The notes under the pieces: model-generated
The model's input: the letters and a program-made list of their open reading frames with translations, nothing else
The model's database searches: none
What the model was told of the DNA's origin: nothing
Position numbers and translations under genes: made by a program
Source of the DNA: Pseudanabaena galeata CCNP1313
Lineage (GTDB): Bacteria; Cyanobacteriota; Cyanobacteriia; Pseudanabaenales; Pseudanabaenaceae
Direction of reading: 5' to 3'
Length of the DNA: 64,000 bases
Assembly (NCBI RefSeq): GCF_029910235.1
Contig: NZ_CP112874.1
Location: 3,162,001-3,226,000 of the forward strand
In this document: positions 4,101 to 51,262 of the stretch, piece by piece
How the letters are laid out: each line of letters starts with the position of its first letter
How positions within the stretch are numbered: position 1 is the stretch's first letter

Positions 4101-4687
4101 TAGGGCTAGCTCTAGTAAAACGCATCGTTGAACTCCATGGCGGTAAAGTCGGACTAACTAGTGAAGTGAATGCGGGTAGTTGCTTTACAGTGGAGTTACC
4201 CTATGATGTTACCTCTGAAGTCGTTCTCAGTAATAACCCAGAGACGACCTTATTACTAAATACACCAATCACCAAAGCCACCAAAGATCAATCTCCTCTC
4301 ATCTTGTTAGTAGAAGATAATGAAGCAAATATTATTACGATTTCCAGCTATTTAGAAGCTAATGGATATCAGATTTTATTGGCGAATAATGGTAAAGATG
4401 CGATCACACTGGCGAAAGTTCACCAACCAGACTTAATTTTGATGGATATCCAAATGCCTGTTATGGATGGAATCGAGTCAACTCAGAAAATCCGTCTTGA
4501 TCCTAAATTTGTTGACACTCCAATTATTGCGATGACGGCTTTAGCGATGTCAGGAGATTGCGATCGCTGTCTAGCTGCGGGGGCTAACAAGTACCTAAGC
4601 AAGCCGATGAAACTAAGGCAATTAGAAATGACGATTCAAGAGCTTTTAAATGCGAGGGATGGCACAAATGCAACATCCTCATCTTAA
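1112..4687 (+). CDS. Membrane hybrid histidine kinase (PAS x4-HisKA-HATPase-REC)
   Basis: This 1191-residue sensor kinase autophosphorylates a His and passes phosphate to its own receiver. It has a TM helix at about 7-29, a helical extracytoplasmic region at about 30-195, and a second TM at about 197-219. Four PAS-type modules follow (about 254-370, 380-495, 505-625, 655-790), each ending in an ISDRKQAE-like linker. HisKA carries H806 (MSHELRTPLNA). The HATPase has N box LINLLNNAVKFT and G boxes DTGIGI and GTGLGLAL. The C-terminal REC has D1112 (LMDIQMPVMDG) and a switch Lys in YLSKPMK. PAS1 and PAS2 resemble each other (AIPD...YEQ...EEVR), suggesting internal duplication. The ligand is unknown. 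It is the first gene of a same-strand signalling island. Confidence 0.9.
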   Translation: MFLSNKIFYGYAIALGITSLGTITGLLLGNYYHQEVLQKSQVISQERKSINALQLDILYNQPAPQLSPKLNNVEILRQENRKLLESIQTNLNIVKAHHNSGEFSTIEGLEALLKEQKQFLTEFQQEYQDLFDRLERLTISPNTSPKNLIDAELQLVAFFKSKNFLRFIEFSDRLSPFAEIVYQREKEVDLDLSQAKVVRIQIVLISMFLSVVTAALFIKCASHAIAIEQAQNNQRLQDQLVERQQTEAKLLKSEAHQRAILSAIPDMIIRMSREGFYSECVTTPNFAVVGVLQDLVGTHVSDTLPADIATKRLQCVQQVFQTNSMQIYEQNIFVDGREQIEEVRIVPYNENEVLLLVRDVSEQHIAMRERNQAELALAASESKSRAMLAAIPDLMFRVGADGVYREFVTQSRDFAIATAKLDRAGMSMAEVLPADIIEQQFYYLQKAIETGELQVYEQQIQVGDRLICEEVRAVKSGEDEVLFMIRDISDRKQAEAKLEKEYYRSAMLFNTSLDGLFVLDLQGYLIDANQSFANMLGYSREEVMSLSIYDIDAKWSAVELLSGIQEFAQEKSVKFETLHRRKDGSLLTVEISASSVDWSGEIVQFGICRDITERKQAEQQLQELNQFLEAKVKERTSELQKREVELQKLSERLALSLKSGAIGTWEWDIRQNTLRWDDRMYELFGITGQPELRRNSETNQNIAYDIWSNGLHPDDRTETETLLHQAILGNAEYDTEFRVVHPDRSIHFIKAYGIVVRDDQGQPYSMLGVNFDISDRKQAELQLQQTNEELIRATRLKDEFLANMSHELRTPLNAILGMTEGLQEQVFGDVNERQLKALQTVERSASHLLELINDILDLAKIEAGHIKLDCTSTSISHLCQSSISFVKQQASQKQIQLNIKLQSNLPPLFIDERRIRQVLINLLNNAVKFTPKGGRVTLESKQLTPNIATSDRPLQQYLQISITDTGIGISPENIQKLFQPFIQIDSALNRQYEGTGLGLALVKRIVELHGGKVGLTSEVNAGSCFTVELPYDVTSEVVLSNNPETTLLLNTPITKATKDQSPLILLVEDNEANIITISSYLEANGYQILLANNGKDAITLAKVHQPDLILMDIQMPVMDGIESTQKIRLDPKFVDTPIIAMTALAMSGDCDRCLAAGANKYLSKPMKLRQLEMTIQELLNARDGTNATSSS

Positions 4688-4715
4688 AAACATCCCCGTA
4701 AGTAAGTAGCTATGC

Positions 4716-4770
4716 AAAACCAAAAAGATGAGTGGCGGCGCGAAGCGCCGCCACTCATCTTTTTGGTTTT
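4716..4770. repeat. Perfect hairpin, GGCGGCGC-GAA-GCGCCGCC family
   Basis: Two 26-bp arms flank a GAA loop. The core GTGGCGGCGC/GCGCCGCCAC and the trailing TATGTCCTAAGCAAAAC...TTGCTATA are shared with copies at 31986 and 32719. The outer arms differ between copies but remain self-complementary. It may act as a transcription terminator after the kinase gene. Confidence 0.85.
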
Positions 4771-4802
4771 ATGTCCTAAGCAAAACTTACATTGCTATAC
4801 AA

Positions 4803-4855
4803 ACCCAAACCCGTAAAGTAGCGCCCCTGCGGGGTGCTACTTTACGGGTTTGGGT
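4803..4855. repeat. Hairpin, GTAAAG(T)...GCCCC family
   Basis: An inverted repeat of about 20-bp arms (ACCCAAACCCGTAAAGTAGC) surrounds a GCCCCTGCGGGGT centre. It is related to hairpins at 26131 and 29983, which have different but complementary arms. Confidence 0.8.
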
Positions 4856-48212: not shown

Positions 48213-48788
48213 ATGAACGCTTTAACTATCAGCCTAGATTCTATAATCGATCTCACCGATGAGCAGTTCTTTCAACTTTGCCGCAAAAATAGCGACCTCA
48301 GATTCGAGCGGAATGCTCAAGGAGATATTACAGTCATGGCTCCCGCAGGTAGTGAAACAAGCGCCCGCAACTCTGATTTAAACGCTGATCTCGTATTTTG
48401 GAATCGACGTACAAAGCTAGGTATTGTCTTTGACTCTTCAGGTGGATTTAAACTTCCTAAGGGTAGTGATCGCTCTCCTGATGCTTCATGGATATTAAAA
48501 GAACGTTGGGAATCTTTAACAGCCGAACAACAGTCAAAATTTGCTCCAATTTGTCCAGATTTTGTAATTGAGTTGATGTCTCCTAGTGATAACTTAAAGG
48601 TTACGCAAGCGAAGATGCAGGAATATCAAGACAATGGCGCAAGGCTAGGCTGGCTGATTAATCGCAAAGATCGAGAAGTGGAAGTTTATCGCATTGGGAA
48701 GCCTAAAGAAGTTTTACAAAATCCGAGTTCTCTTTCTGGGGAAGATGTCTTACCTGAGTTTGTTTTGAGCCTTGCTGAAATTTGGTAA
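48213..48788 (+). CDS. Uma2-family (DUF820) putative endonuclease
   Basis: This 191-residue protein has LTDEQFFQLCRKNSDLRFERNAQGDITVMAPAG, SSGGFKLPKGSDRSPDASWI, CPDFVIELMSPSDNLKVTQAKMQEYQDNGARLGWLI and PKEVLQNPSSLSGEDVLPEF, all Uma2 marks with PD-(D/E)XK-type D and E. It is only distantly similar to the 43379 copy. A very strong hairpin follows it, so it is not co-transcribed with the caspase operon. Confidence 0.93.
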   Translation: MNALTISLDSIIDLTDEQFFQLCRKNSDLRFERNAQGDITVMAPAGSETSARNSDLNADLVFWNRRTKLGIVFDSSGGFKLPKGSDRSPDASWILKERWESLTAEQQSKFAPICPDFVIELMSPSDNLKVTQAKMQEYQDNGARLGWLINRKDREVEVYRIGKPKEVLQNPSSLSGEDVLPEFVLSLAEIW

Positions 48789-48936: not shown

Positions 48937-49332
48937 ATGCAGGAACAAGATTGGGGTGATGAGGAACTGTGGATCGTAACCGCTAGCGATCGCCAAGAAG
49001 TACAGCCAACTGGTCAAAAAAGTCCAACTCGCGATTTCAATCCTTATAACAATCCTTCTAAGGCGACGGTATCGGGTGAAGAAGTACAAGCTAGTCGGGT
49101 TAAGGCTGAGACTTTGGCAGTACAAATGTCTCAGTTTGTCAGGATTATTGGTCGAGTTTTTGCGACGGCTCAACAACAAATCGATCCGCTAGCGGGGTTG
49201 CAACTGGATGAGATTAAGCTTGCTGTGGAGATTTCGGGTAAGGGTGAAATTAAGCTCTTGGGTACTGGTATCGAAACCTCTGGCAAAGGGGCGATCGAGT
49301 TAAAATTTAAAAGGATTGATCCTTCTAAATAA
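48937..49332 (+). CDS. Trypco1-like (CU044_2847-type) protein
   Basis: This protein of 131 residues starts at ATG 48937 with GAGG before it; an in-frame TTG at 48907 is less likely. A variable N terminus leads to LAVQMSQFVRIIGRVFATAQQQIDPLAGLQLDEIKL..., ISGKGEIKLLGTGIETSGKGAIELKFKRI, the pattern of the trypsin-co-occurring Trypco1 domain, found beside trypsin-like and caspase-like peptidases in predicted conflict and death systems. Its stop overlaps the next start (TAATG). It may be a regulator or substrate of the downstream caspase (inference). Confidence 0.7.
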   Translation: MQEQDWGDEELWIVTASDRQEVQPTGQKSPTRDFNPYNNPSKATVSGEEVQASRVKAETLAVQMSQFVRIIGRVFATAQQQIDPLAGLQLDEIKLAVEISGKGEIKLLGTGIETSGKGAIELKFKRIDPSK

Positions 49333-49592
49333 TGGGCAAGAAAAATCATGAAAAATCTATTAATCCAGTGGCGATCGCCAATCCGACTCTTAATACTTTG
49401 ATTGCTGAGTTAGGGGTTGAATGTCAGAGGGTGATCATGTTAGTGCATCAACTGCAATTACCGAATATTAGCGATCGCCAAAAGGTTGATGTATTGGCAG
49501 AGTTAAATGCTTCTATAATTCATTTGCAGTCTCATTGTGATGATGATCTACAGGAGCTTATTGCGGATGAGTTGGAAAGTATTATTCCTTGA
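49332..49592 (+). CDS. Small helical protein in caspase operon
   Basis: This ORF of 86 residues (NTLIAELGVECQRVIMLVHQ, NISDRQKVDVLAELNASIIH and an acidic C terminus DDDLQELIADELESIIP) is fully helical in appearance. It starts in the TAATG overlap with the Trypco1 gene and ends 32 bp before the caspase gene. Two Cys are present; no known family. An adaptor or inhibitor role is only a guess from context. Confidence 0.7.
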   Translation: MGKKNHEKSINPVAIANPTLNTLIAELGVECQRVIMLVHQLQLPNISDRQKVDVLAELNASIIHLQSHCDDDLQELIADELESIIP

Positions 49593-49624
49593 ATCACATT
49601 TTTAGAAAGAGTTTGTAGTCAGCT

Positions 49625-51262
49625 ATGGCGAGAAATTGCGCGGTAATTGTCGGAATCAATGATTATGATGAGATTTCGCCTCTGAAGTATGCCAAAAGCG
49701 ATGCTGAGAGGATGCGTGATTTTTTCAAGCAGGATTTGGGCGTTAGTCAGGATGATCTGTACTTTTTTACCGATGATTCGCCGCGCAATGCTCAGGGACG
49801 TAAGACGCAGCCGACCTATGGCACGCTTAAGTCTTTTTTAGGCGATCGCTTTGCCAACTCCTTTCTATCGGCAGGGGATACGCTGTGGTTTTACTTTAGC
49901 GGTCATGGGATGCCCTGTGAGGGACGCGATTATCTGTTGCCTAGTGATGGCAATCCTCGAACTATGCCTGCTTTGGGGATTGCGATTAGTGATGTGACGG
50001 AACGCTTGCGGCGGAGTGGGGCGGATAATGTGGTGATGTTGATCGATGCTTGTCGCAGTGATGGCGCGAAGAATGCGGGTATGGGTATCGGTGAGGAGAA
50101 GCAGCAGGGTGTAATTACGTTCTTTTCTTGCAGTCCGTCGCAGGTTTCCTATGAGATTGATGAGATTGGGCAGGGGGCGTTTACAAATGTGTTGTTGGAG
50201 GCATTGCGGATTCAGGGTGAAGGGAATTGTGCGACGGTGGAGCGTTTTGCTAATTATTTGAAGGCGCGTGTGCCTCAGTTGACAAAAAGGTACAAAAATT
50301 ATGTGCAGTCTCCTTATGTCAAAATTGAGCCTGAAACGAAGTTGCATTATATTCTGTTGCCGAAATTTGCCAATCTCACGGATATTACTTTGCTTAAATC
50401 GGATGCGGCAATCGCTGAAGCAGAGGAAAGTTTTGATCTGGCTTTTCAATTGTGGATGCGCGTAAATGTAGCTTCTGGAGGGACTGATCTGCAAGCAATT
50501 AATGCTTTTGAACGTTTAGCCAATAAGCGATCTTCAGCAAGTCCACAACCAAAAGCAACAGTTAGTGTAGAGGATAGTAAACAACAAACTGCGCCATCAG
50601 CGTATCCGCCTTCTGTTTCTACCAAATTTAAGAGAGAGTATATTGACAAGAAAACACTACCGCCAGTCGTGGAAGTCAAGAGGAATTCTGTAGGATTGTT
50701 TAGTGCAAAGGGAATTGACTATCGCGGACTCGAAAAGCTACTCAAAGACAAAGAATGGTTTAAAGCGGATGAATTGACGAGAAATCTTATGTTGGAAGTG
50801 GCAATTAGAAGAGATAGAGAATGGCTGGGATTAGCAATAGACCTAGCTTCTAAGGTACTTGACATAGGAACTCAGAAATGGCTGGAGAAGACTTCAATTC
50901 AAAATTTCCCTTGTGAAGATTTGATGACGATTGACCAGTTATGGGTGTATTATAGTGGTGGAAAGTATGGCTTTAGCGTTCAAAAGAAGCTCTGGATAAA
51001 GTGTGGCGGTAAAATCGGTCAATACGACTGGGAAGCCTTCAAAAAATTTGCAGCAGAAATAGGCTGGTATAATCCACAAAAAAACAACTGGAATGACATT
51101 GAGAATATTCAAAACACTCTTCCATCACGCTTTCCATTAAATATTTGGAGATTTAATAGTTCTGTAAACATGGATGGAATGGGTAGAATGAAATGTGTTT
51201 TACTTTTCTCTGTCTTGGAGACTTGTGAACTTCAACTGATAAAGATTACATCCCAATATTAA
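49625..51262 (+). CDS. Caspase-like peptidase fused to a GUN4 domain
   Basis: This 545-residue protein carries an N-terminal caspase (C14) domain (about 1-245) with catalytic H94 (FYFSGHGMP) and C143 (LIDACRSDG), and SCSPSQVSYE and GAFTNVLLEAL near the substrate pocket. A linker (about 260-360, Ser/Pro/Gln rich) leads to a GUN4 domain (about 362-515): DYRGLEKLLKDKEWFKADELT, NFPCEDLMTIDQLW, YGFSVQKKLW and YDWEAFKKFAAEIGWY. GUN4 normally binds tetrapyrroles and activates Mg-chelatase; here it sits as a possible porphyrin sensor on a protease. The operon partner is a Trypco1 protein. This fits a regulated cell-death or conflict module; the trigger is unknown. The last 30 residues after GUN4 match nothing known. 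Confidence 0.88.
   Translation: MARNCAVIVGINDYDEISPLKYAKSDAERMRDFFKQDLGVSQDDLYFFTDDSPRNAQGRKTQPTYGTLKSFLGDRFANSFLSAGDTLWFYFSGHGMPCEGRDYLLPSDGNPRTMPALGIAISDVTERLRRSGADNVVMLIDACRSDGAKNAGMGIGEEKQQGVITFFSCSPSQVSYEIDEIGQGAFTNVLLEALRIQGEGNCATVERFANYLKARVPQLTKRYKNYVQSPYVKIEPETKLHYILLPKFANLTDITLLKSDAAIAEAEESFDLAFQLWMRVNVASGGTDLQAINAFERLANKRSSASPQPKATVSVEDSKQQTAPSAYPPSVSTKFKREYIDKKTLPPVVEVKRNSVGLFSAKGIDYRGLEKLLKDKEWFKADELTRNLMLEVAIRRDREWLGLAIDLASKVLDIGTQKWLEKTSIQNFPCEDLMTIDQLWVYYSGGKYGFSVQKKLWIKCGGKIGQYDWEAFKKFAAEIGWYNPQKNNWNDIENIQNTLPSRFPLNIWRFNSSVNMDGMGRMKCVLLFSVLETCELQLIKITSQY

Follow-up and report, generated by a model that had tools for sequence, protein, structure and literature searches.

Three co-directional open reading frames form a compact operon in the window, by which we mean the whole stretch of 64,000 nucleotides of Pseudanabaena galeata CCNP1313 that was analysed. 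The first two frames overlap by 1 bp and the third follows after a gap of 32 bp, in agreement with the close spacing (overlapping or within 32 bp) described in an earlier sequence-only reading of the locus. The frames and the features within them are listed in Table 1. A Uma2-family gene (48213-48788, +) lies 5' of the operon and is also found upstream at locus L176. A Septu-type anti-phage pair (53819-54607 and 54604-55788, -) is located 2.5 kb from the caspase operon and was recognized by PADLOC as PtuB (E 4e-93) and PtuA (E 7.2e-127).

Table 1. Features of the operon in the window, and Pepco-GUN4 fusions at other loci
Feature	Position	Strand	Remarks
Pepco protein (PF24393), 131 aa	48937-49332	+	constant caspase partner; E 6.5e-27
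86-aa ORF	49332-49592	+	about 11 first codons of gene A (61 aa) plus body of gene B (91 aa)
Caspase-GUN4-like protein, 545 aa	49625-51262	+	
Peptidase_C14 domain	49634-50326	+	dyad His94 (49904-49906), Cys143 (50051-50053)
Helical segment 3' of caspase	50369-50518	+	own profile 'link'; helices in predicted model; common to most Pepco-caspases
GUN4-like core without tetrapyrrole-motif region	50705-51058	+	
Degenerate upstream border, CGCTTTCCA instead of GGACACCTCCC	51128-51136	+	
Hypervariable segment, window copy, 66 nt	51137-51202	+	pLDDT < 50 over residues 500-520
Degenerate copy of 3' DNA element	51203-51253	+	core 21-mer 51209-51229, 4 mismatches
Pepco-GUN4-half fusion	L021:6784-7374	-	
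Pepco-GUN4-half fusion	L076:5057-5647		
Pepco-GUN4-half fusion	L078:4584-5162	-	
Pepco-GUN4-half fusion	L079:5097-5753		

Pepco as the constant partner of the caspase

The first gene had been taken for a Trypco1-like gene, which proved to be wrong. Its product matches the Pfam family Pepco with 94.7 bits against a curated cut-off of 27, and Trypco1 (PF19493) is unreported among its Pfam matches; the hhalign probability for Trypco1, the alignment of which is shallow, was 0.4%. A true Trypco1 gene is present elsewhere in the same genome (C1:3385490-3385792, -), together with a divergent caspase gene (3385905-3386549, +) in a 957-aa frame.

Among the fetched cyanobacterial loci, a caspase gene stands directly 3' of 95 of the 123 distinct Pepco genes, with a median gap of 1 nt, and others are located 5' of CHAT proteins or are fused to truncated GUN4. 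This adjacency is far above chance, and Pepco is the constant partner gene of the caspase. The predicted model of Pepco reached a pLDDT of 69 and gave no PDB match with E < 0.001, and no literature on Pepco was found among open-access papers. Carriage by phages or viruses was considered and rejected, as neither Pepco nor the 3' DNA element described below was found in phage or viral sequences. In Pseudanabaena-like genomes, the Pepco domain also occurs without a caspase, fused to a GUN4 half that ends at about profile position 84; in the window's genome, this fusion lies 3' of a chloride-channel-like gene and 5' of an Hpt protein gene.

The third gene matches Peptidase_C14 (E 1.3e-23) and GUN4 (E 1.3e-28) in Pfam. 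Its p20-type domain and His/Cys dyad mark it as a predicted protease of the orthocaspase type (Peptidase C14). The dyad is intact in the window copy, as the sequence-only reading had stated, and far from being lost in most relatives it is retained by every one of the 88 complete caspase domains encoded 3' of Pepco. In the predicted structure, the caspase is confident and the GUN4 core mostly so, while the hypervariable segment is without confidence; a Foldseek search with the caspase part matched MALT1 and metacaspases. The NCBIfam model caspase_w_EACC1 scored 71.5 on this protein, against a cut-off of 140.

The small frame between Pepco and the caspase, named as part of the operon in the sequence-only reading, is present in only 10 of the 26 genomes of the genus. 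It is a genus-level accessory cassette made by the fusion of two small genes, A and B, which are separate in relatives and lie there between Pepco and the caspase. A role as a core component was rejected because the frame is genus-limited and its two source genes also occur without Pepco. For example, an A-B cassette without Pepco lies beside ribH in L072 (4704-5167). In L176, the cassette (4378-4841) is located 5' of Pepco and 3' of an apparent relic of a Pepco 3' end.

A hypervariable insert between borders conserved as DNA

The tails of caspase-GUN4 genes contain a dissimilar stretch. It is bounded by the conserved GGACACCTCCC (GHLP) and by a DNA string, likewise conserved, that precedes the stop codon and whose reading frame varies from species to species. 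By pattern search, this element of about 45 nt was found in 75 of 291 genomes, a reversed-pattern control giving almost none, and the consensus of the downstream border is about YTTCTCTTCTCTCGCRTCGAGACTTGTRAAsTGTAR. Nearly all of the 87 distinct element sites end GUN4-like genes, with frames 0, 1 and 2 used at 37, 28 and 22 sites, respectively. Depending on the frame, the element encodes the tail LFSRxETCKV, SSLASRLVKCNI or LLSRRDL, and stop codons are placed at +17, +24 and +31, one per frame. Stops in the frames that the gene does not use are kept in 56/56, 46/47 and 42/51 cases, where chance would give 5.7%. An exact GGACACCTCCC forms the upstream border in 29 of 58 cases, versus none of 30 canonical GHLP sites. 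Both borders of the insert are conserved as DNA. At L269 (position 1501, +), a degenerate element has no GUN4 coding sequence upstream; this was the one clear case of a solitary copy.

The inserts are 9-165 nt long (median 60), and their lengths modulo 3 (35/25/24) do not depart from uniform. Their composition is G.41, T.31, A.18 and C.10, compared with A.33, C.16, G.26 and T.25 in the upstream flank, and their dinucleotides and runs are near random. An all-against-all comparison yielded 483 matches versus 437 after shuffling, that is, no homology among inserts beyond the control. The GHLP frame is open in 79 of 84 inserts, whereas the other two frames are open in 49 and 48 and shuffled inserts in a fraction of 0.49 (p 5e-19); the inserts are therefore translated under selection.

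Closely related genes were compared in a sample that holds one genome per species. Between two species (L065 and L328) and between two paralogs of one genome (L315 and L316), the flanks are 87-95% identical, yet the inserts are unrelated and differ in length. In a kinase-GUN4 pair (L271 and L296), two species share one and the same insert, which shows that inserts are heritable and that their turnover is not constant. The insert of L319 (element at 2002, -) contains an in-frame stop and, about 30 nt ahead of the present element, what looks like an older copy that has mutated, which may point to successive rounds of insertion.

The window copy has lost the stop at +24 (TAA to CAA) and kept those at +17 and +31. 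Its insert is A/T-rich and its element degenerate, and both count against the explanation that we favour below; no member of the linked Y1 clade was found in its genome. Because the element is degenerate and the genome is without this Y1, the window copy is probably old and frozen.

The linked Y1 transposase and the possible origin of the inserts

In the surroundings of 42 elements, to a distance of about 7 kb, Y1 (IS200-like) transposase genes are the only recurrent family besides the GUN4 genes themselves. A Y1 gene lies 58-297 nt downstream of the element, always convergent, at 18 of 80 sites. When 291 genomes were compared, the Y1 clade, from which weaker paralogs that belong to one family were excluded by hand, was present in 49, the element in 75 and both in 32, corresponding to p 1e-10 in a Fisher test that ignores genome relatedness. 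From 20 further Y1 genes, 16 had enough sequence and 14 of these face a GUN4 gene. The linked protein has features of RAYT/TnpA-REP proteins, namely a Y1_Tnp domain with the HUH motif in 33/36 and the tyrosine motif in 36/36; those that deviate are short ORFs of 191-199 aa. It shares the Y1_Tnp domain, HUH, the YIxxNP tyrosine motif and low copy number with the class 2 TnpA-REP group of REP-associated tyrosine transposases (PMC6006769), but here the Y1 gene is convergent with GUN4 receptor genes, and GUN4 is unmentioned in PMC6006769.

We tentatively propose a template-independent diversification in cyanobacteria, which we consider possible but doubtful in its full form: Y1 would open the 3' element, random G/T-rich DNA of any length would be added after GHLP, and the element would close the gene in any of the three frames. 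The Y1 transposase is the best candidate for a site-opener, and it may also be the maker of the inserts. Several results count against the proposal. Y1 is absent within 400 nt at 62 of the 80 sites, many genomes with the element are without this Y1 clade, and no polymerase or template for the inserts was identified. It was also considered that inserts next to Y1 are fresher and thus more G/T-rich; this was rejected, as the G/T content does not differ with or without adjacent Y1 (p 0.64), and this result counts against the proposal as well.

It can be argued instead that the element is the end of a selfish or decaying RAYT-like Y1 transposon lodged at GUN4 gene ends, with stops that spare the host gene and a variable stretch that is unconstrained. 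We consider this unlikely. An adjacent, convergent Y1 gene, many Y1-less sites that could be remnants, and conservation of DNA regardless of frame would suit a transposon end; however, apart from L269 the fetched sites are nearly all at GUN4 genes, Y1 is mostly present in one copy per genome, the inserts differ from eroding sequence in being G/T-rich and under selection for an open frame, and the upstream border is conserved as DNA too.

GUN4 in an exchangeable C-terminal slot

All of the 69 element-bearing proteins match GUN4, and their N-terminal parts are conflict-type effectors: NACHT in 19, C14 in 17, kinase in 16 and TIR in 6-9, and also CHAT and AAA. Among Pepco-caspases, the C-terminal module is FGS in 50, GUN4 in 21, both in 1, and others in 13 (including WD40, nSTAND, YkuD, RDD and HD-CE). 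By parsimony, exchanges between FGS and GUN4 number 12 on the caspase tree, and at least 4 of them are forced. The variable patch of FGS follows the DGR-type pattern RGGSWxxxxxxCRSAxR...GFRV, with an entropy of about 3 bits at variable positions and about zero at framework positions. Given this patch and the hypervariable GUN4, both common modules of the slot are hypervariable. As GUN4 repeatedly swaps with FGS bearing DGR-type patches, it probably fills a variable-sensor slot.

Canonical GUN4 is a regulator of Mg-chelatase. The caspase-fused GUN4 shares with it the core domain and the GHLP motif but is without LxNxLR, its tail being replaced. The full GUN4 domain reported from the sequence alone was not borne out: the matches end at profile position 109 of 141, and the tetrapyrrole-motif region is missing. 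LxNxLR is required for bilin binding (PMC10156173), and its arginine is important for porphyrin binding (PMC8967248). The motif was found in 28 of 30 canonical GUN4 and in none of 22 caspase-fused ones (two of the 22 being cut by contig ends), so that the latter appear to lack the porphyrin-binding arginine.

According to a proposal of 2020 (PMC7159879), GUN4 senses tetrapyrroles and acts allosterically on the kinases, caspases, trypsin and TIR proteins that contain it. The sequence-only reading, too, suggested a module triggered by free tetrapyrroles or photo-oxidative stress; on this view, GUN4 would bind free porphyrin or bilin and activate the protease allosterically. Such a trigger is quite improbable in our view. 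It is disfavoured because LxNxLR is absent and the segment is replaced by hypervariable sequence; moreover, a loss of bilin binding in cyanobacterial paralogs has already been proposed (PMC10156173), and the genome has a canonical GUN4 ortholog as a separate gene elsewhere. GUN4 homology and a core that is otherwise kept speak for it, as does the observation that a change of the motif in CrGUN4 abolished bilin but not porphyrin binding (PMC10156173). From its sequence, the caspase-fused GUN4 is probably not a tetrapyrrole sensor. Of the suggested death or defence module, the analysis supports a caspase module of conflict type whose dyad is intact and whose partner gene is constant; it gives no support to the name Trypco1 or to a trigger by tetrapyrroles or photo-oxidative stress.

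Targeted protein diversification in bacteria is chiefly known from diversity-generating retroelements (DGRs). The present inserts resemble DGR products (PMC7517822, PMC10907252) in the targeted variation of a C-terminal patch, the conflict-type receptors and the conserved 3' border, and the same slot in FGS relatives holds DGR-type patches. A DGR, or another templated writer with a template that is not recognisable, is nevertheless a very improbable source and was rejected: insert lengths are free and independent of frame, the inserts have no constant positions and no common backbone, and they are followed by three-frame stops. Neither adenine-specific change nor a fixed-length template was seen, the window tail has no second copy in its own genome, and a search of that genome found no DGR-type reverse transcriptase and no template repeat, the reverse transcriptases over the family cut-off being two RT-Cas1 fusions (L261 and L263, contig 5) and one of group II type. 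An inverted repeat, TCTCG-CRT-CGAGA, lies within the element and was looked at as a possible REP hairpin; alifold gave no consensus structure and little covariation, and a hairpin in RNA or DNA appears unlikely. It is scarcely credible that the element serves as a regulatory signal at the 3' end of the mRNA and that the tail evolves fast because it is unimportant, as the place of the element at the gene end and the short, frame-dependent tails might suggest, when the inserts are held open in frame, base composition is skewed on one strand, the borders are sharp on both sides, and no consensus RNA structure was found.

The explanation that we favour, and consider moderately probable as a whole, is a cell-death-type conflict module in which an orthocaspase, with Pepco as its small constant partner, is joined to an interchangeable C-terminal module with a putative role in recognition, this being the C-type-lectin-like FGS with its DGR-type patch in most relatives and the GUN4-like domain in the window operon. 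The ligand-loop segment of GUN4 is replaced by the hypervariable insert between GGACACCTCCC and the downstream element, and whatever the frame in which the insert ends, this element provides a short tail and a stop codon. The inserts seem to be written without a recognisable template, at a site that the Y1 HUH transposase, convergent just downstream in many genomes, may open. From the architecture, we infer that the hypervariable loop may bind a ligand derived from an invader or from damage, whereupon cleavage or self-cleavage by the caspase would trigger the response. The variable loop suggests a way of diversifying immune-type receptors that has not been described before, and not a sensor of chlorophyll.

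Proteins that combine a caspase with GUN4 have been in the literature since 2010 (PMC2853523), and GUN4 was listed in 29 orthocaspases in a survey of 132 strains (PMC8283722). Since these reports and PMC7159879 came first, both the architecture and the interpretation put forward in the sequence-only reading had already been published; the fusions do exist, but the neighbour here is Pepco and not Trypco1. The accessible parts of the two surveys describe the same combination of C14 and GUN4 on one protein and give the domain only, with no mention there of the lost motif, the insert, the 3' element, the Y1 link or Pepco. Among open-access papers, no literature linking GUN4 to insert hypervariability or IS200 was found. 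The EACC1 and TRADD-N/EACC2 caspase systems (PMC7159879, PMC8195603) likewise have a constant partner gene and a varying C-terminal domain on the caspase; however, the present partner, Pepco, belongs to a Pfam family of its own and is neither EACC1, with its single TM helix, nor TRADD-N, and the sensor modules are FGS and hypervariable GUN4.

If the favoured explanation is true, bacteria would have a second route of diversification, in which insert length is free and termination in all three frames is built in. Caspase, NACHT, TIR and kinase receptors would be its targets, and it would be a bacterial counterpart of the junctional diversity seen in antibodies. In cyanobacterial signalling proteins, many GUN4 domains would then be re-read as variable recognition modules and not as pigment sensors. 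The predictions of the proposed system are clear and can be tested in culturable strains. At one locus (L383:1951-10880), GUN4 forms a run of six profile matches in four ORFs over about 8 kb, which ends at a convergent Y1 gene.
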